Shown here: piece by piece, positions 40,525 to 56,319 of the stretch
Position numbering within the stretch: position 1 is the first letter of the stretch
How the letters are laid out: every line of letters starts with the position of its first letter
Position numbers and translations under genes: made by a program
Source of the DNA: an uncultured Alphaproteobacteria bacterium
GTDB taxonomy: Bacteria > Pseudomonadota > Alphaproteobacteria > HIMB59
DNA length: 64,000 nucleotides
Direction of reading: 5' to 3'
Assembly: GCA_902610415.1 (NCBI GenBank)
Contig: CACLVL010000002.1
Location: 1 to 64,000, forward strand
The notes under the pieces: model-generated
The model's input: only the letters and a program-made list of their open reading frames with translations
Told to the model about the DNA's origin: nothing
Database searches by the model: none

Positions 40525-41493
40525 ATGAATTTTCGAGTTGACAATCTTCAGTATTGTAACTGGTCTAGAGAAATATTTGAAATAAATCGTGAGGCTAAAT
40601 TAGATGCAGTTCATGCTACGATCTGTTATCACGAAGACTACGACGAAGTTCTCTGTAATATAAAGACTTGGAATACTTATTTTGAAAAAAACAAAGATTT
40701 AATCTTTCAAGGCAAAAGTTCAAAAGATATTGCTAAAGCGAAGCTCGAGAATAAGACTGCTATATTTTATGGTTTACAAAATTGCTCTCCTGTTGAAGAT
40801 AATATTGATTATGTAGAGTCTCTAAAAGAATTGGGCGTACTATTCATGCAACTTACTTACAATAATCAATCATTACTAGCCACCGGGTGTTATGAAAAAC
40901 GTGATAGTGGTATTACTCGAATGGGAAAAGAGGTTATTAAAGAGATGAATCGGGTAAATATGATTATTGATATGTCCCACTCAGCAGAATTTTCAACATT
41001 AGAAGCAATTGAAATTTCAATTCAGCCAATTGTTGTAAGTCATGCCAATCCTTTGTTCTGGCATAAGGGGCTTCGAAATAAATCTGATGAAGTATTAAAA
41101 GCATTAAACGATAGTGGTGGAATGATAGGGTTCTCGTTATATCCTCACCATCTTAAAGATACTTCAAATTGCACTCTTCAATCATTTTGTGAGATGATTG
41201 CAGAAAGTACAAAAAAAATATCTGTTAAGCAAATTGGTATTGGCTCAGATCTTTGTATTAATCATCCAGATAGTATAGTTGAATGGATGAGAAATGGTAC
41301 TTGGACAAAAACAAAAGATTTTGGTGAAGGAACAGCTGATAATGCAGGTTTTCCTCCTCAGCCCTCATGGTTTAAAGATGCCAGAGGTTTTGATAATCTC
41401 CATAAAGGTTTAAAAGATGTTGGTTTCAGCGAAGATGAGACGCACGACATCTTGGGTAATAATTGGTACAATTTTTATAAGAAATTTGATTGA
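40525..41493 (+). CDS. M19 membrane dipeptidase family
   Basis: LDAVHATICYHEDYDEV, MIIDMSHSAEFSTLEAIEISIQPIVVSHANP, IGIGSDLC. Confidence 0.85.
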   Translation: MNFRVDNLQYCNWSREIFEINREAKLDAVHATICYHEDYDEVLCNIKTWNTYFEKNKDLIFQGKSSKDIAKAKLENKTAIFYGLQNCSPVEDNIDYVESLKELGVLFMQLTYNNQSLLATGCYEKRDSGITRMGKEVIKEMNRVNMIIDMSHSAEFSTLEAIEISIQPIVVSHANPLFWHKGLRNKSDEVLKALNDSGGMIGFSLYPHHLKDTSNCTLQSFCEMIAESTKKISVKQIGIGSDLCINHPDSIVEWMRNGTWTKTKDFGEGTADNAGFPPQPSWFKDARGFDNLHKGLKDVGFSEDETHDILGNNWYNFYKKFD

Positions 41494-43148
41494 TGCAAAT
41501 AGATTTAAGAAAACCAGAATTTGTTATGAAATTAGACCGATTAGGGTCTTTTCATCAATCTAAATTGTCTTTTCTAAGAAGCTTTATAAGAGAATTTAAG
41601 AATTGGGAATTTAAAACTAAAGAATTCAACTTAGATAATCGAGGCTTTGGTCATATTGTTTATGTTGTAAATAATGGGCAAAAACAATACTCCCTAATTT
41701 GCTTTTCAAATCATATTGAAGATAGTGAAAGATCTGATCGAGTTATAGCTACGAAATGGGATGCATCTTTTGTTTTATTTGATGGAGTTCCAGCTAAAGA
41801 GGATATTGAAAGGCTTAAAGCTAATGTTCCCCTCCAAGAGCAGGGAAGAGTGAGTGAAAAGGAACTTTGCCTATCTCGAGCTAACAAATCAGTACGTGTT
41901 TTTGAACATGTGGTAGATAAACTGTCTAAAGGTATACAACCTGATACTAAGCTTCTATACAGTGTGGGTTATCTTTATAGAACTACTGCAGTTTATGGCT
42001 CTGGAAAATTTGGATTAGCTGATCGAGTTAAAATTCAAGATAGAGAAGAGCTTAAAGGGCCATTTAGATTGGAGATGATGCTTGTATACCTTGCAAGACA
42101 ATTTACTTTCGATGTCGTCAACCATGTGGCTCACTTTCGCTCTCCAAATAAGGCAATTAAACTTAGCGAAGATATTGCTAGAAATTTAGGTATTGGTAAT
42201 TCTACAGGTTTGGGAATGGCACCCTTTATAGTAAATCATCCAGCTTTATTAAATCAGTGGATCATTGCAAAAGAAAAAGCATTAAAAGCCATTCGATCAA
42301 TTTTATCTGTGAGTCAAAAAGATAAAGATATTTTTGAGTCATATCTTTCTGCTATTCAAGAGAATATTAAATATTGGAAAACGGAGAGTGATTACCAAAA
42401 GAAAAAAAATAAACAGCTTTTAAAGGACTTAGATAGTTTTCAAAATTTTTATTCAACATATTCCTTGAAAAATTATTTTTGGAATTCTATTTACGAGTGG
42501 ACAGAAGCAAATACTCAATCTGAATGCTGTGAGTTTATTGTTTCATTAATGATGGAGGTTTATCCAGATATTGTAGAACCTCTCAGTTATGAAATGTCTA
42601 TAAATGAAGATAAGTACTTTGATATTGATACATCAAAGACAATTTATGAGGTGTGTAAATTAATTGAAAATCAATATACCTGGTTGCTAAATATTGATTT
42701 TGATAACAAAGAAAATATTTTTAATTTTTGGTATTACTCAAAAAATAAACAAGAGCCTCGGATGTCAGATAGATTTTCTGAGGAAGGCTCAGAATTAGAG
42801 CTGCCCCTAGCTATAGCAAGAGATATAAGTGCACTTTATGGTGATTTAAAATCTTATGATTTAAAAAGAGACTTAGGCTATTATTTGTTAAAAAGTCAAG
42901 AATATCGACATATATTAAGAAGAGTCCTGGTATGTGAAAAACTGCCCTACTCAGAAATTCAAGATAACACTATCTCAAAAACTTTAATCCCAGTTGATAT
43001 GATACGACTAAAGTTATCCTTTTTTGGTGCAACACGATTTGATCCTCGTTCTGATCGATGGGTAAGAATTACTATGTATCAAGGTGCTCCCTTAATGAAA
43101 GAAATAAGTACATCTAACGATACGTGGTCTTACAAAAAGATAGCTTAA
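41493..43148 (+). CDS. Uncharacterised ~551-aa protein
   Basis: Long ORF starting within the TGA of the upstream gene (TGATG); no motif recognised. Confidence 0.85.
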   Translation: MQIDLRKPEFVMKLDRLGSFHQSKLSFLRSFIREFKNWEFKTKEFNLDNRGFGHIVYVVNNGQKQYSLICFSNHIEDSERSDRVIATKWDASFVLFDGVPAKEDIERLKANVPLQEQGRVSEKELCLSRANKSVRVFEHVVDKLSKGIQPDTKLLYSVGYLYRTTAVYGSGKFGLADRVKIQDREELKGPFRLEMMLVYLARQFTFDVVNHVAHFRSPNKAIKLSEDIARNLGIGNSTGLGMAPFIVNHPALLNQWIIAKEKALKAIRSILSVSQKDKDIFESYLSAIQENIKYWKTESDYQKKKNKQLLKDLDSFQNFYSTYSLKNYFWNSIYEWTEANTQSECCEFIVSLMMEVYPDIVEPLSYEMSINEDKYFDIDTSKTIYEVCKLIENQYTWLLNIDFDNKENIFNFWYYSKNKQEPRMSDRFSEEGSELELPLAIARDISALYGDLKSYDLKRDLGYYLLKSQEYRHILRRVLVCEKLPYSEIQDNTISKTLIPVDMIRLKLSFFGATRFDPRSDRWVRITMYQGAPLMKEISTSNDTWSYKKIA

Positions 43149-43744
43149 TGCACTCCTTATATGAAATTGAAACAACAATTAAGAGATCATCGCGTGCTAA
43201 GGGCTTAAGTTGGGGCGTTTCTGAGGAGGCTGGAAAAGCAGTAAGAGTATTAGAGCAATCTAAATTTCAAGGATTAGAAAGTTTTAAAAGACTAGTTGAT
43301 TTAGATCTAACTAAGCTTAATAAACTTTTGGATGTAGATCAATCTGATACCAGCAACCTTTGCCCCATACATTTTGGAATTTTTTTTCTTGACCAATCTC
43401 ATAATAAAGACTTACATCGTATTCATCAATTCAAGAATATAAATGAGCCACTATTAATTTTTCCTTTCTTATCTAAGTCAGCAAAAAATAATTTACTCTA
43501 TTTTGATTTAAAGTCATCAGTTTTAAATTTTACAATAAGTCCTGGGGATATTTTTTTTATAGATCAAAATGTGGTTCCTAATAATTTATCAGATTTTTCT
43601 TTAACCATTTCAACTCAAAGGAAAAGCCTATATGACCAAAGTTCTTGGGATTATCTATATAAACTATCACTTGAAACTTTTGTTGAAGAGACAGAAGAGA
43701 AGAAAATTTCTGGAGCTGGTGCTGGTTTAACAGATAATGATTAG
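43148..43744 (+). CDS. DUF3726-like protein of unknown function
   Basis: Start MHSLYEIETTIKRSSRAKGLSWGVSEEAGKAVR overlaps the upstream stop (TAATG); C-terminal GAGAGLTDND. Confidence 0.65.
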   Translation: MHSLYEIETTIKRSSRAKGLSWGVSEEAGKAVRVLEQSKFQGLESFKRLVDLDLTKLNKLLDVDQSDTSNLCPIHFGIFFLDQSHNKDLHRIHQFKNINEPLLIFPFLSKSAKNNLLYFDLKSSVLNFTISPGDIFFIDQNVVPNNLSDFSLTISTQRKSLYDQSSWDYLYKLSLETFVEETEEKKISGAGAGLTDND

Positions 43745-45373: not shown

Positions 45374-46480
45374 ATGAACCATTTAATCGCTAAAAGTGCT
45401 CGACTTCGCTCCACACCCTATACCAAAAGAATAGAAAAGTATGGAGTTCAATCCTACACAGTTTACAATCATATGATTTTACCAGCATCTTTTAAAGGGA
45501 TAGAGGAAGACTGTCTTCATCTTAAAAACAATGTTCAAGTTTGGGATGTGTCTGTAGAAAGGCAAGTCCAATTTAAAGGCCCTGATGCTGCAAAGCTTAC
45601 ACAGCTTATTACTTGTAGAGATCTATCTAATGCAAAAGATTATCTTTGTTACTATGCTCCAATTATTGATGAAAAAGGAAAAATTCTTAATGATCCTTTA
45701 ATTATGAAGGTTGGTGATGATACTTGGTGGTTATCTATAGCCGATTCAGATATCTTATTATATGCAAAGGGTATTACCATTGGTATGAATTTAGATGTAG
45801 AAATTTCAGAGCCCAATGTCAATATATTAGCTGTACAAGGTCCTAAATCTTTTGATTTGATGGAGAGAGTCTTTGGAGAAGAAATAAAAAAATTAAAATT
45901 TTTTAATTTCAAAAGATATGAATTTCAAGGCCATAAATTGTTAATCGCAAGATCAGGTTGGTCGAAACAGGGTGGATTTGAAATTTATGTTGATGATGAT
46001 GAAGTTGGTCTAAATCTTTATGATAGCTTGATTAATAATGGAGAAGATTTAAATGTAAGACCAGGCTGTCCAAATTTAATTGAAAGGATTGAGGGAGGTC
46101 TGCTTTCTTTTGGAAATGATATGACTATGGAAGATACTCCCCTAGAATGTAGCCTAAATCCTTTTGTATCTTTTAATCCAGATATAAATTATTTAGGAAA
46201 ATCAATACTAGAAAAACAAAATCGAGAAGGAGTACAAAGATCATTAATTGGTTTAAAACTCAAGCTTGATAATTTAACTATAACAAAATACTTACCTATT
46301 CAATTAGATGGTCAGTTTATTGGCGAATTAAGATCTGGTTGTTTTAGCCCTGATTTTGGGTGTTGTCTTGGTATCGCAATGATACAAACCAAGTTTCAAA
46401 ATTTTAATGAAGTTAAGACACTATTGATTGATAATCTAGAAGTGCAATCACAGATGACGTCATTACCTTTTTCAAAATAG
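45374..46480 (+). CDS. dmdA: Dimethylsulfoniopropionate demethylase DmdA
   Basis: RLRSTPYTKRIEKYGVQSYTVYNHMILPASFKGIEED...LIARSGWSKQGGFEIYVDD...RPGCPNLIERIEGGLLSFGNDM; very close to the Pelagibacter-type DmdA as recalled. Confidence 0.88.
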   Translation: MNHLIAKSARLRSTPYTKRIEKYGVQSYTVYNHMILPASFKGIEEDCLHLKNNVQVWDVSVERQVQFKGPDAAKLTQLITCRDLSNAKDYLCYYAPIIDEKGKILNDPLIMKVGDDTWWLSIADSDILLYAKGITIGMNLDVEISEPNVNILAVQGPKSFDLMERVFGEEIKKLKFFNFKRYEFQGHKLLIARSGWSKQGGFEIYVDDDEVGLNLYDSLINNGEDLNVRPGCPNLIERIEGGLLSFGNDMTMEDTPLECSLNPFVSFNPDINYLGKSILEKQNREGVQRSLIGLKLKLDNLTITKYLPIQLDGQFIGELRSGCFSPDFGCCLGIAMIQTKFQNFNEVKTLLIDNLEVQSQMTSLPFSK

Positions 46481-46518: not shown

Positions 46519-47784
46519 GTGTTTGGAACTATTTTAAATTCATGGGCACTTTTTAGTGGCTTTGGGCTAATAATGATTGCTCATACACTTCAAGGAACTT
46601 TACTAAACATCAATTCTGTTTTTTTTAATTTTACAGACTTTGAGATTGGCTATGTATTTACAGGATATTTCATAGGATTTCTGTTTAGCTCAATTCAATG
46701 TCCTAAACTTATTAAAAATGTTGGGCATATAAGAGTATTTGCAGCATTTGCATCTTTAGGATCAATAGCTATCTTATTGCATTGGATTTTTGTTGATCCA
46801 GTTCTTTGGTTAATCTTTAGAGTAATTACTGGTTTCTCATATGCTGCCATTTATATAGTTTGTGAGAGCTGGTTGAATGATCGAGCAGATAACCAAACAA
46901 GAGGCCAGTTGATTGGTTTCTATATGATTGTTTTATATATTTCTACAAGTATCGGGGTAATGTTAATAAATATAGGGACAACTACAGAAGCGCATCTTTA
47001 TATTCTATCATCTTTGTTGATATCCCTTGCATTGGTTCCTATATTGCTTACTAAGAAACCTGCTCCTGAATTCACAACACCTAAATTTTTAAGTCTTAAA
47101 GACTTATATAATAAATCACCTATGGCTTTTGTCGGCTCTTTTTCAATTGGAATGATTTATAGTGCTTTATTCGGTTTAATTGCAGTTTTTGGTGCTAAAA
47201 TTGGTTTTAGTATATTTCAAATTTCAATTTTAGTTTTTGTAAACATGTTTATTGGAGCTGTTTTTCAGTATCCTATTGGAAAAATCTCAGATCGTTATGA
47301 TCGAAGAACTATTTTATTTGTACTAAATTTGATAGCTATTGGCTCTTTATTACTGGCCTTGATATTTGGTTCATTCTCATTTTATGTTCTATTATTGTTT
47401 ATTGGTTTTCATTCTGCTGTTTCATTACCTTATTACGCTGTCGTTATTTCACATATGAACGATTTTTTGGAAAAAGACGAGATTGTTTCAGCAAGTTCAA
47501 CATTAACACTTGTTAATGCTTTAGGTATGGTAGCAGGTCCTATGTTAGCCTCAGGTTTTATGGCTTATTTTGGACCCTATGGTTTTTTTATTTATATGAT
47601 AGTAGTGTATTCTTTAGTGGCTCCTTATAATTATTTTAGAATTAGAGTGGGAAGAACTAGTGATATCTATTATGAAAATACACCTTCAATGATTGTTCCT
47701 AGAAATACATCTTCAATTGGGATGCAATTAGCAACAGAACAGATTATAAATAAAATTGAAGAGGGAGAGGAAATCTCACAGTGA
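46519..47784 (+). CDS. MFS transporter (YcaD-like)
   Basis: 12-TM; FRVITGFSYAAIYIVCESWLNDRADNQTRGQLIGFYM. Confidence 0.85.
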   Translation: MFGTILNSWALFSGFGLIMIAHTLQGTLLNINSVFFNFTDFEIGYVFTGYFIGFLFSSIQCPKLIKNVGHIRVFAAFASLGSIAILLHWIFVDPVLWLIFRVITGFSYAAIYIVCESWLNDRADNQTRGQLIGFYMIVLYISTSIGVMLINIGTTTEAHLYILSSLLISLALVPILLTKKPAPEFTTPKFLSLKDLYNKSPMAFVGSFSIGMIYSALFGLIAVFGAKIGFSIFQISILVFVNMFIGAVFQYPIGKISDRYDRRTILFVLNLIAIGSLLLALIFGSFSFYVLLLFIGFHSAVSLPYYAVVISHMNDFLEKDEIVSASSTLTLVNALGMVAGPMLASGFMAYFGPYGFFIYMIVVYSLVAPYNYFRIRVGRTSDIYYENTPSMIVPRNTSSIGMQLATEQIINKIEEGEEISQ

Positions 47785-48242
47785 TTATAGAGGATAAATT
47801 ACAAGAGTTAGGAATTGTTTTACCCAATCCCGCAAAACCAGCTGGAAGTTACAAACCTTGTGTAATAGTTGATAATACTGCATATATTTCAGGCCAAGGT
47901 CCTCTCCTTGAGGATGGAAGTTTTGCAAAAGGTGTTGTTGGTAAAGATTTGAGTTTGGAACTAGCTCAAGAACATGCACAAAAGTGTGGTTTGGCAATAT
48001 TATCTGCCTTAAAAAATGAAATCAAAGATCTAGATAGAGTAGAACAATTAATAAAGTTGACAGGTTTTGTGAACTGTTTAGATAATTTTACTCAACAACC
48101 TCAGGTTATTAATGGTTGTTCAGATTTAATGCAAAAGATCTTTGGCGAAAAGGGTATTCATGCTCGTGCAGCAGTTGGAGTGAATTCTCTTCCTTTAGGC
48201 TTCTCAGTTGAAATTGAAGCTATATTTAAAGTAACTCCTTAA
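47781..48242 (+). CDS. RidA/YjgF family protein
   Basis: AYISGQGPLLEDGSFAKGVVGKDLSLELAQEHAQKCGLAILSAL. Confidence 0.9.
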   Translation: MIIEDKLQELGIVLPNPAKPAGSYKPCVIVDNTAYISGQGPLLEDGSFAKGVVGKDLSLELAQEHAQKCGLAILSALKNEIKDLDRVEQLIKLTGFVNCLDNFTQQPQVINGCSDLMQKIFGEKGIHARAAVGVNSLPLGFSVEIEAIFKVTP

Positions 48243-48310: not shown

Positions 48311-49441
48311 ATGAAGGTTCAGTTTTCAAGTGACTCATTAAAAGTGACACACCAAAATCATGATTATGAATTACATCCTATTTGGCTAAGAGAAAGATTA
48401 CCAGGTCGTGAGTATGTCGACAAAGATACAAATCAAAGGCTCTACGAACCCTCTTCTATCAAATTAGATTTGCAAATTAAAACAGCAAAAATTTTAGAGG
48501 AAAAACTTGATATTGAATTCAATGATGGGGCTAAAGGGAAGTATAATATTAAAGATCTTCTAACAGAATTTGATAACGATAAAAACAAACGTGGCCCTTT
48601 ACCTAAAAGACTACTTTGGAACTCAGATTTAAAAGTATTTCCAAGTGTAGAATTTGAAGAAAATATGGTTGAGAGAGAGTCAATGTATAGACTTTTAGAG
48701 GAATTTTATAAATATGGTTTTGTAATTATTAAAAACGTACCAACAAAAAATCAGTATTTACTCAAATTTGTGAGATCTATAGGTCCTATTAAAGTGACTA
48801 ACTTTGGAGAGTATTTTGATGTAATGTCAAAACCTAACCCTAATGATTTAGCTTATAAGCCTATTGCTCTTCCTCCACATACGGACAATCCCTATAGAAA
48901 GCCAGCTGCGCCTGGCATTCAATTTTTACATTGTATTAAAAATGAGGTCAGTGGTGGTTTTTCGACTCTAGTAGATGGTTTTGCAGTTGCTGATTATATT
49001 AAGATCAATTACCCTGAAGCTTTCGAGTCTTTGACTAAAACTAATCTTAGATATCAATTTCAAGATAAAGATATTATTTTAGAAAACTGGGGAGAGCTTA
49101 TTGAGTTGGATAAAGAGGGAGACTATAAACAAGTAAGGTATAGTACAAGAGTTGATTATGTTCCGCCAATTAATCGAAAAAAACTTACAAATTTCTATAA
49201 AGCAAGAAAACTACTAAGTGATTTATATTCTTCATCAGATTTTGAGATTAAGTTTAAACTTAAAACCGGTGACATTATGATGTTTGATAATCATAGACTG
49301 CTTCATGGAAGAACTTCATACAATGCTAATGAAGGTGCTAGACACCTCCAGGGTTGTTATCTAGATTTTGACTCAACAGATGGCAAATTTAGACATTTGC
49401 ATAGAAAACACATTCAAAATGGATCTAAAAATTTTGGTTGA
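48311..49441 (+). CDS. Fe(II)/2-oxoglutarate dioxygenase, gamma-butyrobetaine-hydroxylase-like; probable TmpA
   Basis: N-term HPIWLRERLPGREYVD; Fe/2OG ligands HTD (PPHTDNPYR) and distal H (FDNHRLLHGR); overlaps an HD-domain gene. Confidence 0.85.
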   Translation: MKVQFSSDSLKVTHQNHDYELHPIWLRERLPGREYVDKDTNQRLYEPSSIKLDLQIKTAKILEEKLDIEFNDGAKGKYNIKDLLTEFDNDKNKRGPLPKRLLWNSDLKVFPSVEFEENMVERESMYRLLEEFYKYGFVIIKNVPTKNQYLLKFVRSIGPIKVTNFGEYFDVMSKPNPNDLAYKPIALPPHTDNPYRKPAAPGIQFLHCIKNEVSGGFSTLVDGFAVADYIKINYPEAFESLTKTNLRYQFQDKDIILENWGELIELDKEGDYKQVRYSTRVDYVPPINRKKLTNFYKARKLLSDLYSSSDFEIKFKLKTGDIMMFDNHRLLHGRTSYNANEGARHLQGCYLDFDSTDGKFRHLHRKHIQNGSKNFG

Positions 49442-50039
49442 TAAGTATGTAAAATTTAAACATATGAAAGAAGGTGATAAAAATGATTATTTATTACTTC
49501 AAGAGTATGAAGAAAAATATGTCTCTTTAACTTATGAGAGAATTATCGAAGAACTATCAAGACAAGGAAAAAATACTATGGAGGGCTATAAAATTTCCAG
49601 ACTGGATCATGGACTTCAATCAGCAACAAGAGCTTATAACGATGGGGCTGATATTGATTGGATTGTTGGAACATTACTTCACGATATTGGCGATGGACTT
49701 GCTCCTCAAAATCACGATAGATTTTCTGCTGAGGTCATAAGACCTTATGTTAGAGAAGAAGTAACTTGGGTGGTTGAGCATCATGGAATTTTTCAAATGA
49801 TTTACTACGCCCATCATTATGGTTGGGATAAAAATGCTAGGGATAAATTTAAAGATAATATTTATTTTCAAACATGCGCGGACTTCTGCGAAAGATGGGA
49901 TCAAAAATCTTTTGATCCAGAATATGAGAACAAAGATCTAGATTTTTTTAAACCCATGATAAAAGAGATTTTTAATAGACCTCCATACAAAGAGGAATTC
50001 ATTAAAAAAAGAGAAGTTTTGGGATTACCAAAAATTTAA
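49419..50039 (+). CDS. HD-domain mixed-valent diiron oxygenase-like protein; probable TmpB (PhnZ family)
   Basis: ISRLDHGLQSA, LLHDIGDGLAPQNHDRF, VVEHHGIFQ, ERWDQKSFD: H..HD..H..H..D array; overlaps upstream dioxygenase by 23 nt. Confidence 0.8.
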   Translation: MDLKILVDKYVKFKHMKEGDKNDYLLLQEYEEKYVSLTYERIIEELSRQGKNTMEGYKISRLDHGLQSATRAYNDGADIDWIVGTLLHDIGDGLAPQNHDRFSAEVIRPYVREEVTWVVEHHGIFQMIYYAHHYGWDKNARDKFKDNIYFQTCADFCERWDQKSFDPEYENKDLDFFKPMIKEIFNRPPYKEEFIKKREVLGLPKI

Positions 50040-50080: not shown

Positions 50081-50605
50081 ATGAGAATTCTCTTGATAAC
50101 CTTAAGTGTATTACTCACAAATATAGGAAGTGTTATGGCGCAAAACTTACATAATTTTAGTATTCAAGATATTGATGGTAATCAAATTAGTTTGGATAAA
50201 TTTAAAGGAAAACCTGTTCTTCTTGTGAATACTGCTAGCAGATGTGGTTTTACTAAGCAGTATGCTAACTTGTCCAATCTTCATCGTGAATATTTAGATA
50301 AAAATTTAGTAATTATTGGAACTCCCTCTAACAGCTTTCGACAAGAGTTAGATGATGAAAAGGATGTTAAAGAGTTTTGTTTAGTTAACTATGATACAAA
50401 ATTTATCATTTCTGAAATCATTGATGTGAACGGTGAGGACGCCCATCCATTATACAGCTGGATGATGTCAACATATAATGAAACTCCAAAATGGAATTTT
50501 TATAAATATCTTTTTGATGGTGAGGGAAATTTAGTTAAAAGTTGGTCTTCAATGACTAAGCCTGATAGTTCGAAAATTACAGATTTAATAGATGACTTAA
50601 TATAA
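50081..50605 (+). CDS. Glutathione peroxidase family (Cys type)
   Basis: LLVNTASRCGFTKQYANL; WNFYKYLFD. Confidence 0.92.
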   Translation: MRILLITLSVLLTNIGSVMAQNLHNFSIQDIDGNQISLDKFKGKPVLLVNTASRCGFTKQYANLSNLHREYLDKNLVIIGTPSNSFRQELDDEKDVKEFCLVNYDTKFIISEIIDVNGEDAHPLYSWMMSTYNETPKWNFYKYLFDGEGNLVKSWSSMTKPDSSKITDLIDDLI

Positions 50606-50635
50606 TAAAAAGGGCGCGATAAGCGCCCTTTTTTA
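50606..50635. terminator. Bidirectional rho-independent terminator between convergent gpx and amt
   Basis: AAAAGGGCGC-GATAA-GCGCCCTTTTTT. Confidence 0.92.
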
Positions 50636-52423: not shown

Positions 52424-53593
52424 TCAAGAACTTGGAAGCGCTTTTTTAGGATCAAAGAAAGGCTTTTCTACTATTATTGCATCTCTGAGAACCCCATAAA
52501 TTTCAACTAATAATTTCATTCCTATTTCAGTGTAATTTTTATCAACCATAGCCAATGCTATATTTTTTTCTAATCGTGGTGAAAATACTGCGGAAGTTAC
52601 TTTTCCAATGCTTTTATCATCACAGAATATTTCCCAAAATATTGTGTTTGGTCCTGTCAAAGAATCTCCCTCTATTTCCAAGCCAATTTGCTTACGTTTT
52701 ATACCTTTTTTTTGAATTTCAATAAGTGCTTTTTTACCAATGAAATTAATGTCACTATCCAAAGATACTAATCTTTCAAGTCCCATTTCAAATGGGTTAG
52801 TATGTATATCTGCATCTGCGTGATATGACAACATACCTCCTTCGATACGGCGAATGCTTGATGTGTGACCAGGCTGAAGACCATATTCATTCCCTGCTAT
52901 CATGATCATTTCCCATAATTTATCTCCCTGAGATCCGTCTCGTAAAAATAATTCATATCCAAGTTCTGTAGACCATCCAGTACGAGATACAACTAAGGGA
53001 ATACCATCTAATTCTAGTTCTTTGAGCCAGTAATATTTTAAATCTCTTATGCTTTCTCCAAATAATTTCACCATAATCTCTCTTGACTTTGGTCCCTGTA
53101 GCTGAAGAGGTGAAACATCTGGTTCATTGATGCTAACATTTAGCCCTGAATTTACTGCAACACCTTGAGCCCAAAGTAAAATATCGCTATCAGATAGAGA
53201 TAACCAAAAATGATTTTCATCTAAACAAAGTAAGACAGGGTCATTGAGTATACCCCCTTTTTCGTTGGTAATTAGAACATATTTACACTGCCCTATAGAT
53301 AATTTGCTAAGATCACGAGGTGTAAGTAATTGAATAAACTGAAATGCATCAGGACCAGTTATCTCAACTTGTCTTTCAACTGCTACATCACATAAAATTG
53401 CATCATTAACTAAATTCCAAAAATTTTTCTCAGGGTCGCCAAAATCCCTTGGGATATACATGTGATTATAAACTGAAAAGCCAGTGGCCCCCCATCGAAC
53501 TGTAGCATCAAAAAATGGAGATTTTCTAATTTGAGTGCCAAATCCAAAATGTTTATTTGTATTTTTACTTTGCATCATAGTGGCTCCTTCCAT
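52424..53593 (-). CDS. GcvT-fold, DmdA-like aminomethyltransferase/demethylase paralog
   Basis: FSVYNHMYIPRDFGDPEKNFWNLVNDAILCDVAVERQVEITGPDAFQFIQLLTPRDL; homologous in layout to the dmdA product at 45374. Confidence 0.8.
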   Translation of the reverse strand: MEGATMMQSKNTNKHFGFGTQIRKSPFFDATVRWGATGFSVYNHMYIPRDFGDPEKNFWNLVNDAILCDVAVERQVEITGPDAFQFIQLLTPRDLSKLSIGQCKYVLITNEKGGILNDPVLLCLDENHFWLSLSDSDILLWAQGVAVNSGLNVSINEPDVSPLQLQGPKSREIMVKLFGESIRDLKYYWLKELELDGIPLVVSRTGWSTELGYELFLRDGSQGDKLWEMIMIAGNEYGLQPGHTSSIRRIEGGMLSYHADADIHTNPFEMGLERLVSLDSDINFIGKKALIEIQKKGIKRKQIGLEIEGDSLTGPNTIFWEIFCDDKSIGKVTSAVFSPRLEKNIALAMVDKNYTEIGMKLLVEIYGVLRDAIIVEKPFFDPKKALPSS

Positions 53594-54660: not shown

Positions 54661-56319
54661 TTATCTTTGAGAATTCTGCCAGTTTGGATGAATATAGGGT
54701 TGTAGATTAGATGGAGCTAAAAGAGGTTTTCCTAAAATATGATCTGATGCTTTTTCACCAGTCATTATGGATGGTGCATTGAGATTTCCATTACAAATTT
54801 GAGGAAAAATTGAGGAGTCTGCTAGATATAAATTTGAAAAACCCTTAACTTTACAGTCATTTTGAACAACTGATGAAGGGTCATTTTCTGCTCCTATCTT
54901 ACAAGTGCCACATGGATGGTAAGCACTTTCACAGTTATTTTTTATAAATTCATCAAGTCCCTCATCTGATACAACATCATCTCCAGGTTGAATTTCACTT
55001 CCTTTATAAAGAGCTAATGCATCTTGGTTAAGAATTTCTCTGGAAAGCCTGAGTGATTTTCTAAAGTTTGGAAAATCCTCTTCATGAGACATATAATTAA
55101 ATTTTATTAAAGGTGCCTCAAAAGGGTTGCCAGACTTTAATTTCACAAATCCTCGAGATTTTGAGCGCATGGGTCCTACATGTAGTTGAAAACCATGTCC
55201 TTTACTTGGTGCTTTGCCATCATATCGTATTGCAACGGGAAGAAAATGGAATTGGATATCAGGATACGGGATATTTTTATCTGAACGAATAAATCCAAGT
55301 GTTTCAAATTGGTTTGTCGAGCCTGGTCCACTTTTAAGAAACATCCATTGCATACCGATTAGCAATTTAGAAAATGGGTTTAAGTACTTGTTAAGTGTTA
55401 CTGGTTGTAAACACTTCACTTGAAAATAAACTTCTAGATGATCTTGTAAATTTTTACCAACTCCAGGTAAATTTTTAATTACCTTAACTCCTATGCTTTT
55501 TAAATCATTAGCCTCTCCAATTCCTGACCTTTGGAGAATAGTTGGACTATTTATAGCGCCAGCTGATAAAACAACTCCGATATTGGCGTTAAAAATTTTT
55601 TTTTGGCCTTGATGAAATACTTCCACCCCTTTAGCCTTGTCTTCACTAAATATTATTTTATCGACTAAAACTTTAGTAATAAGTTCTACATTTTTCTTTG
55701 CTAATGCGGGTTTCAAATAAGCTTTAGCTGTTGAAAAACGTGAACCTTTCCAAACATTCATGTCAGCAGGCCCAAAGCCCTCCTGTCGAAAACCATTATA
55801 ATCTTCAGTATATGTATACCCTGCTTGTTCAGTTGCTTTTACAAACGCGTCATGTAAAGGATTATCTCTTTTGCCATGAGTTATATTTAAAGGACCTGAT
55901 TTCCCTCTAAATTCAGAATTTCCTCCATGGCTTGCTTCCATTCTTTGAAAATATGGAAGAACATCTGGATAATCCCAACCTTTCGCTCCGCTTTCTGCCC
56001 ATTGATTATAATCACCAGCATTTCCTCTTACATAAATCATTCCATTAATTGAGGAAGATCCTCCGATAACTTTACCTCGAGGACAGGCTAAAGACCTTCC
56101 GTTTAATGCTTGCTCTGGTTCAGCTTTATAACCCCAATCGAACTTATCCATGTTCATAGGGTAAGAGAGAGCAGCAGGCATTTGAATAAATGGACTTTTG
56201 TCTAGTCCACCAAATTCCAAAACTAGAATTTTTAACTTTGGGTTTTCCCCAAGCCTGTATGCTATTGTAGATCCTGCCGATCCAGAACCAATTACAATAT
56301 AATCAGGATTTTCAAACAT
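54661..56319 (-). CDS. GMC oxidoreductase, choline dehydrogenase-like
   Basis: DYIVIGSGSAGSTIAYRLGE, CPRGKVIGGSSSINGMIYVRGNAGDYNQWAE, AYHPCGTCKIG. Confidence 0.9.
   Translation of the reverse strand: MFENPDYIVIGSGSAGSTIAYRLGENPKLKILVLEFGGLDKSPFIQMPAALSYPMNMDKFDWGYKAEPEQALNGRSLACPRGKVIGGSSSINGMIYVRGNAGDYNQWAESGAKGWDYPDVLPYFQRMEASHGGNSEFRGKSGPLNITHGKRDNPLHDAFVKATEQAGYTYTEDYNGFRQEGFGPADMNVWKGSRFSTAKAYLKPALAKKNVELITKVLVDKIIFSEDKAKGVEVFHQGQKKIFNANIGVVLSAGAINSPTILQRSGIGEANDLKSIGVKVIKNLPGVGKNLQDHLEVYFQVKCLQPVTLNKYLNPFSKLLIGMQWMFLKSGPGSTNQFETLGFIRSDKNIPYPDIQFHFLPVAIRYDGKAPSKGHGFQLHVGPMRSKSRGFVKLKSGNPFEAPLIKFNYMSHEEDFPNFRKSLRLSREILNQDALALYKGSEIQPGDDVVSDEGLDEFIKNNCESAYHPCGTCKIGAENDPSSVVQNDCKVKGFSNLYLADSSIFPQICNGNLNAPSIMTGEKASDHILGKPLLAPSNLQPYIHPNWQNSQR

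Follow-up and report, generated by a model that had tools for sequence, protein, structure and literature searches.

The question raised by this locus is whether two overlapping genes encode a phosphonate-cleaving TmpA/TmpB pair or an oxidative pair acting on a different substrate. The window, that is, the whole stretch of 64,000 nt that was analyzed, belongs to a genome assembled to 66% completeness (50 contigs, 988 kb), and the nearest named genome records are single cells of marine alphaproteobacteria; the group is probably HIMB59/AEGEAN-169. The first gene (48311–49441, + strand; 376 aa) is assigned by its ORF, profile and PDB matches, tree and alignment to the Fe(II)/2OG hydroxylases of the TauD/TmpA/BBOX superfamily. 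The second (49419–50039, + strand; 206 aa from the ATG at 49419) encodes an HD-domain protein of PhnZ/TmpB/MIOX fold with an HDIGD motif and without the YxxE loop; a longer alternative frame of this gene starts at a TTG at 49368. The preliminary description had read the two as probable TmpA and TmpB, which hydroxylate 2-trimethylaminoethylphosphonate (TMAEP) and then cleave it to glycine betaine and phosphate. Its structural observations were confirmed. The genes overlap by 23 nt according to the ORF coordinates (49419–49441, + strand), the hydroxylase has intact Fe ligands in the HTD...H arrangement (H190, D192, H332), and the HD ligand set H..HD..H..H..D (H64, H88, D89, H99, H122, D161) is invariant in 112 of 112 relatives. 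The N-terminal domain of the hydroxylase indeed lacks Cys zinc ligands, with no Cys in the first 90 residues. However, this absence does not discriminate, because the N-terminus of Labrenzia TmpA is equally devoid of Cys. At the superfamily level, the reading is also correct: the first protein is a TmpA/BBOX-type Fe/2OG hydroxylase, and the second has the HD oxygenase fold of PhnZ, TmpB and MIOX.

The identity of the hydroxylase as TmpA was not upheld. Against the TmpA model (NCBIfam NF049936) it scored 339.3 bits, below the curated cut-off of 400, compared with 577.5 bits for Labrenzia TmpA. The scores against the BBOX model (TIGR02409; 259.8 bits, cut-off 414.75) and the TMLD model (TIGR02410; 190.7 bits, cut-off 268.3) were also too low, and the N-terminus matched GBBH-like_N weakly (20.6 bits, cut-off 22.8). 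TmpA is the top single model and the top PDB match of the hydroxylase (TmpA 164 bits, BBOX 153), which counts against a non-TmpA reading. In a tree of 67 rows with two support values per node, the hydroxylase falls in its own clade of 26 rows (support 100/100), apart from TmpA and from the BBOX-like rows. This clade comprises all 11 rows with an HD neighbor of the window type, 4 rows with an enolase-superfamily neighbor and 11 others. The TmpA rows form a separate set of 18 (95/69), and the BBOX-like rows a third group. Two rows with a TmpB neighbor (L168, L169) were placed among the BBOX-like rows, and L124 stood apart with weak support.

The residues around the substrate point in the same direction. 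The phosphonate ligands of TmpA, as given in passages of PMC9296572, are N187, N287 and R288. In our alignment, the N187 site is D179 in the window (25 Asp and 1 Asn among the 26 clade rows; Asn in 18/18 TmpA rows), and the N287 site is T279 (Asn in 2/26 clade rows vs 14/18 TmpA rows). The R288 site is retained as R280 (24 Arg and 2 Lys in the clade; Arg in 18/18 TmpA rows). Thus, one of the three reported ligands is kept, and its retention counts against a non-phosphonate reading. The two sites that correspond to the carboxylate-binding Asn191 and Asn292 of BBOX (PMC4497603, in part) are Asp and Ser/Thr in the hydroxylase clade. TMLH has Asp231 in the place of BBOX Asn191, where it is thought to bind the α-ammonium group (passages of PMC7764450); D179 is homologous to it, and Asp is also found in two TMLD-like rows. 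Aromatic positions are conserved in the clade: Phe169 and Tyr182 in 24/26 rows each, Tyr195 and Tyr350 in 26/26. These statements on the pocket rest on the alignment, because the predicted model of the hydroxylase is poor (mean pLDDT 38.9). A role as BBOX in carnitine biosynthesis, against which the preliminary description had warned, was set aside on account of the model cut-off, the residues and the position outside the BBOX-like rows of the tree. Neither of the two findings that would have overturned the preliminary description by its own account was made: the dioxygenase does not cluster with the BBOX-like rows, and the HD protein has its diiron ligands.

The HD protein, likewise, could not be identified as TmpB. 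It scored 23.4 bits against the TmpB model (NCBIfam NF049941), for which the cut-off is 300 and Labrenzia TmpB reaches 351.8, and 37.9 bits against the Phn-HD model (cut-off 214.6). Its predicted structure (pLDDT 84.9, pTM 0.80, built from 38 aligned sequences) matched PhnZ (Z 17.7) and TmpB (17.0) best in the PDB, followed by MIOX (11.4), with all further rows at 8.6 or less. In PhnZ, according to passages of PMC7916636 and PMC8177086, the amino group of the substrate is bound by Glu27 from the YxxE loop and its hydroxyl group by His62 of HDxGH. We counted the equivalent residues in 112 relatives and 21 TmpB-type rows, after removal of nine duplicates by name. HDxGD occurs in 112/112 relatives, and HDxGH in 19/21 TmpB-type rows. 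The YxxE positions are M54 and Y57 in the window; Tyr54 and Glu57 are each found in 0/112 relatives, whereas all 21 TmpB-type rows have both the Tyr and the Glu. Position 126 is Gln in 112/112 relatives and Lys in 21/21 TmpB-type rows. The Lys of PhnZ that aligns with Gln126 presumably binds the phosphonate. In a tree of 64 rows, the 21 TmpB rows split from the HD family at 100/100 support on very long branches.

Judged by these sequence comparisons, the hydroxylase and the HD protein belong to separate, uncharacterized families and are not TmpA/TmpB. Residues to which phosphonate or amine binding has been ascribed in TmpA, PhnZ and TmpB are missing, and TMAEP is unlikely to be the substrate of the pair. 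A literature search, with limited coverage of the subscription journals, returned no description of this HD family.

The distribution of the families was surveyed in 385 alphaproteobacterial genomes. The HD family was found in 109 of them (E ≤ 1e-20), and the TmpA cut-off was passed in 27. A TmpB gene lies beside TmpA in 17 of the 18 examined among these 27, and the HD family is present in 20 of the 27. Therefore, the HD family, coexisting with TmpA, is not a substitute for TmpB. The co-occurrence may simply follow phylogeny.

Related loci were compared in named genome records (the best 80 of 258 relatives). A TauD-type gene lies directly 5' of the HD gene in 28 of these 80, which are the closest relatives of the window (HD identity 88–96%), and other genes flank the HD gene in 46, so that the coupling is not obligatory; in the remaining 6, the HD gene was not recovered by ORF calling. 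The pair and its gene order nevertheless recur beyond chance, in these 28 loci and in 7 outside the genus (Pseudomonas plasmid L083, G106, G230, G411, G395, G319 and G163). In nine further loci (L054, L059, L061, L067, L074, L077, L128, L134, L135), the HD gene is paired with a PhyH-type gene. TauD-paired and PhyH-paired rows interleave on the 64-row HD tree, with four changes each, and the sister HD proteins L116 and L135 have a TauD and a PhyH partner, respectively. The pairing of the HD family with Fe/2OG partners thus arose more than once. Because it is repeatedly paired with TauD-clade or PhyH-type Fe/2OG enzymes, the HD protein is probably a second-step oxygenase. Plasmid-borne HD relatives (35–38% identity) occur in scattered contexts that do not narrow the function. 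A further context of the HD family is a conserved trio of M24 peptidase, HD and alpha/beta hydrolase genes in other Alphaproteobacteria (L033, L035–L042).

Within the genus (G000 and 36 other sampled members; hydroxylase counted at ≥68% identity), the hydroxylase is found in 28 genomes. The HD gene accompanies it in 22, and the HD gene in the genus is always accompanied by the hydroxylase (22/22). In the other six (G002, G013, G019, G022, G026, G030; loci L100–L104 and L191), an enolase-superfamily (MR/MLE-type) gene of 380–401 aa sits instead between the hydroxylase and a glutathione-peroxidase-like (GPX) gene. The G022 locus is 94% identical to the HD-bearing L012 over 4,066 nt, ending 34 nt before the hydroxylase stop; the partner gene has no match, GPX is 74% identical, and the sequences are then 95% identical again. 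The HD gene and the enolase-superfamily gene are therefore allelic replacements of each other, and the breakpoints in G022 suggest homologous recombination. It follows that the hydroxylase does not always need the HD protein. Such an exchange behind a near-identical hydroxylase makes the shared intermediate directly accessible to study. The best PDB match of the MR-type protein is 4jhm, a structure without a stated function. In G180, an enolase-superfamily gene lies near, not adjacent to, a TauD gene of the clade.

The pair is part of a unit on the + strand. A DmdA-type GcvT-family gene (45374–46480, +; 500 bits on the NCBIfam DMSP demethylase model, cut-off 410) is likely its first gene. It is followed by an MFS transporter gene (46519–47784, +), which adjoins the hydroxylase/HD pair throughout the genus and may encode the importer, and by a Rid/YjgF-family gene (47781–48242, +) that overlaps the MFS gene by 4 nt. 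The GPX gene (50081–50605, +) closes the unit, and a GC-rich, terminator-like inverted repeat (50607–50633), flanked on either side by A and T runs, separates it from the convergently oriented Amt gene. Promoter-like sites were as numerous as expected by chance. Pho-box regulation, which the preliminary description had proposed to look for, found no support: TGTCA-N6-TGTCA with up to two mismatches occurs at 40 sites in the window vs 56.9 expected, and the gaps in front of 48311 and 45374 contain none. The Rid protein was considered as a supporting imine hydrolase, set aside and given no weight; judged from the motif, it presumably lacks the catalytic Arg of RidA. Upstream of the unit, a gene for a 552-aa protein without a Pfam match (41490–43148, +) and a DUF3726 gene (43124–43744, +) are conserved in the genus. 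On the opposite strand, a second GcvT/DmdA-like gene (52424–53593, −) stays below the DMSP demethylase cut-off of 410 with 380 bits; it is shared with the closest relatives and absent from most L012-type loci. A choline dehydrogenase gene (54661–56319, −; 769 bits on the betA model, cut-off 732) lies 4.6 kb from the pair.

In other genomes, the gene neighborhoods suggest a link with the metabolism of choline, carnitine and betaine. On the Pseudomonas plasmid (L083), the genes behind the pair encode a choline-binding protein (457.7 bits; the cut-off is 379), a choline dehydrogenase that passes the cut-off of the PRK02106 subfamily (755.8 bits) but not that of betA, and an aldehyde dehydrogenase. 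A GMC oxidoreductase gene adjoins the pair in G106, and a similar gene was recognized by eye in G230. In G411, choline-dehydrogenase-like and glycine-betaine-monooxygenase-like genes are nearby, each under its equivalog cut-off. Carnitine-dehydrogenase-, BKACE- and thioesterase-like genes, none above its equivalog cut-off, adjoin the HD gene of a sister family, in which the hydroxylase and HD genes are unlinked, and likewise the basal clade TauD gene in G217. In this sister family, the hydroxylase orthologue (47–51% identity; L105, L107, L110) adjoins or lies near an agmatinase-type ureohydrolase gene, with demethylase-like genes also nearby in L110. Sister-family genomes also encode a second, different HD protein (e.g., G037:C1:153104-153637), which scores 150–162 bits against the TmpB model (cut-off 300) and is probably an enzyme similar to PhnZ. 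It was not found in the genus of the window.

Signs of a phosphorus role were also sought. No phosphonate-degradation genes were recognized beside the seven pairs outside the genus. In G395 and G319, from one genus, a PstS-like gene directly follows the pair (157 and 160 bits on TIGR02136, cut-off 206); this would fit a phosphorus role and counts against a non-phosphonate reading. The absence of C–P lyase, on which the preliminary description had remarked, is not general. PhnJ was not found in the 66% complete genome of the window, but it occurs in 5 of 60 relatives, including the pair-bearing G017 and G029. Passages of PMC10734472 on C–P lyase islands and of PMC10308909 on phosphonate consumption in HIMB59/AEGEAN-169 make no mention of the pair.

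We propose, with slightly better than even confidence, that the two proteins form a two-step oxidative catabolic pair that follows the logic of PhnY/PhnZ and TmpA/TmpB on a different, onium substrate. In the first step, the TauD-clade enzyme would bind a quaternary ammonium (or sulfonium) group in its aromatic pocket and hydroxylate a carbon near it by means of Fe(II) and 2-oxoglutarate. In the second, the diiron centre of the HD protein would take a hydrogen from the carbinol carbon, and O2-dependent cleavage of the adjacent bond would leave a betaine-type carboxylate. Tandem action is suggested by the gene overlap, its recurrence and the fold, and a non-phosphonate substrate by the residues and the gene context; we infer the oxygenase activity of the HD protein, the onium substrate and the product. 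At its other end, the substrate probably carries something other than a phosphonate. The replacement of a phosphonate-binding Asn by Asp, with the neighboring Arg kept, would fit a head group that resembles an amino acid or bears a cation in another form. More tentatively, the pathway may cleave a C–C rather than a C–P bond: the β-carbon of an onium amino acid (e.g., a trimethylated diamino acid or S-methylmethionine) would be hydroxylated, and the product either cut oxidatively to a betaine by the HD protein or passed on to the enolase-superfamily enzyme, with ocean strains carrying one or the other as interchangeable alleles. If so, this would be a third type of pathway in which a hydroxylase is joined with an HD oxygenase. 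S-Methylmethionine or another sulfonium, prompted by the adjacent DmdA-type gene, is retained merely as an example.

The evidence was weighed against three other readings. It is unlikely that the proteins merely share a pathway, with the HD protein acting on another intermediate or as a general oxygenase or hydrolase and the overlap serving co-regulation only. The many HD genes without a TauD partner, the six of 28 genus members with the enolase-superfamily gene beside the hydroxylase and the unlinked genes of the sister family would agree with it. However, repeated independent pairing with two Fe/2OG families, the constant company of the hydroxylase in the genus and the oxygenase-type fold argue for tandem action.

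The two remaining readings keep a phosphonate as the substrate. That the pair serves another phosphonate, with altered recognition of the group opposite the C–P bond, we consider quite unlikely. It is favored by the PhnZ/TmpB fold, by the PstS-like neighbor in one genus and by the PhyH-HD pairs, whose design resembles PhnY/PhnZ, PhnY being PhyH-type. It is weakened by the loss of two of the three reported phosphonate ligands and of the Lys common to all 21 TmpB-type rows, by the failure to recognize phosphonate-degradation genes beside the seven outside pairs and by the enolase-superfamily swap. A divergent yet functional TmpA/TmpB that converts TMAEP is very doubtful. The best NCBIfam and PDB matches of the hydroxylase, the best folds of the HD protein, the pair architecture, the retained R288 and the PstS-like gene speak for it, but both proteins fail the NCBIfam cut-offs and lie outside the respective clades. 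Moreover, the N187 and N287 sites, the YxxE loop, the HDxGH motif and the Lys are altered almost throughout the two families, and the coexistence with TmpA leaves no place for the HD family as a TmpB substitute. We therefore retain the two-step onium pathway as our preferred reading.

Only a handful of reactions are known for HD-domain oxygenases: a 2020 review covers MIOX, PhnZ and TmpB, and a 2023 review adds methylphosphonate- and fungal AEP-type enzymes. The HD family described here is a large sister family with an altered substrate site and intact oxygenase ligands, and surveys of phosphonate use in the sea could easily take it for TmpB or PhnZ.

Among the known systems, TmpA/TmpB (Leisingera caerulea; PDB IDs: 6npb, 6npa) has the same succession of a BBOX-superfamily Fe/2OG hydroxylase and an HD diiron oxygenase and shares the Fe and diiron ligands, the HTDNPYR motif, the Arg288 equivalent and the HD fold. 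The window pair differs in the scores under both curated cut-offs, the separate clades, the change of Asn187 to Asp and the loss of Asn287 in most rows. Its HD protein is extended at the N-terminus by about 30 residues, lacks the YxxE lid, and has HDxGD in place of HDxGH and Gln in place of Lys. PhnY/PhnZ, which acts on 2-aminoethylphosphonate, has the same two-step logic and the closest HD fold, and HD proteins related to that of the window have PhyH-type partners. However, identity is about 22%, the window HD protein lacks YxxE and HDxGH, and its hydroxylase is TauD-type. TMLH/TMLD belongs to the same superfamily and has the Asp at the site of BBOX Asn191, whereas the window hydroxylase falls below the TMLD cut-off, in another clade and without the FNN motif of the TMLD-like rows. 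BBOX shares the superfamily and the aromatic pocket positions, but both of its carboxylate-binding Asn residues are replaced in the window hydroxylase, which scores below the BBOX cut-off and belongs to a separate clade. Finally, MIOX has the HD diiron oxygenase fold and offers a precedent for C–C cleavage, although it is a weaker structural match than PhnZ or TmpB and has no paired hydroxylase.
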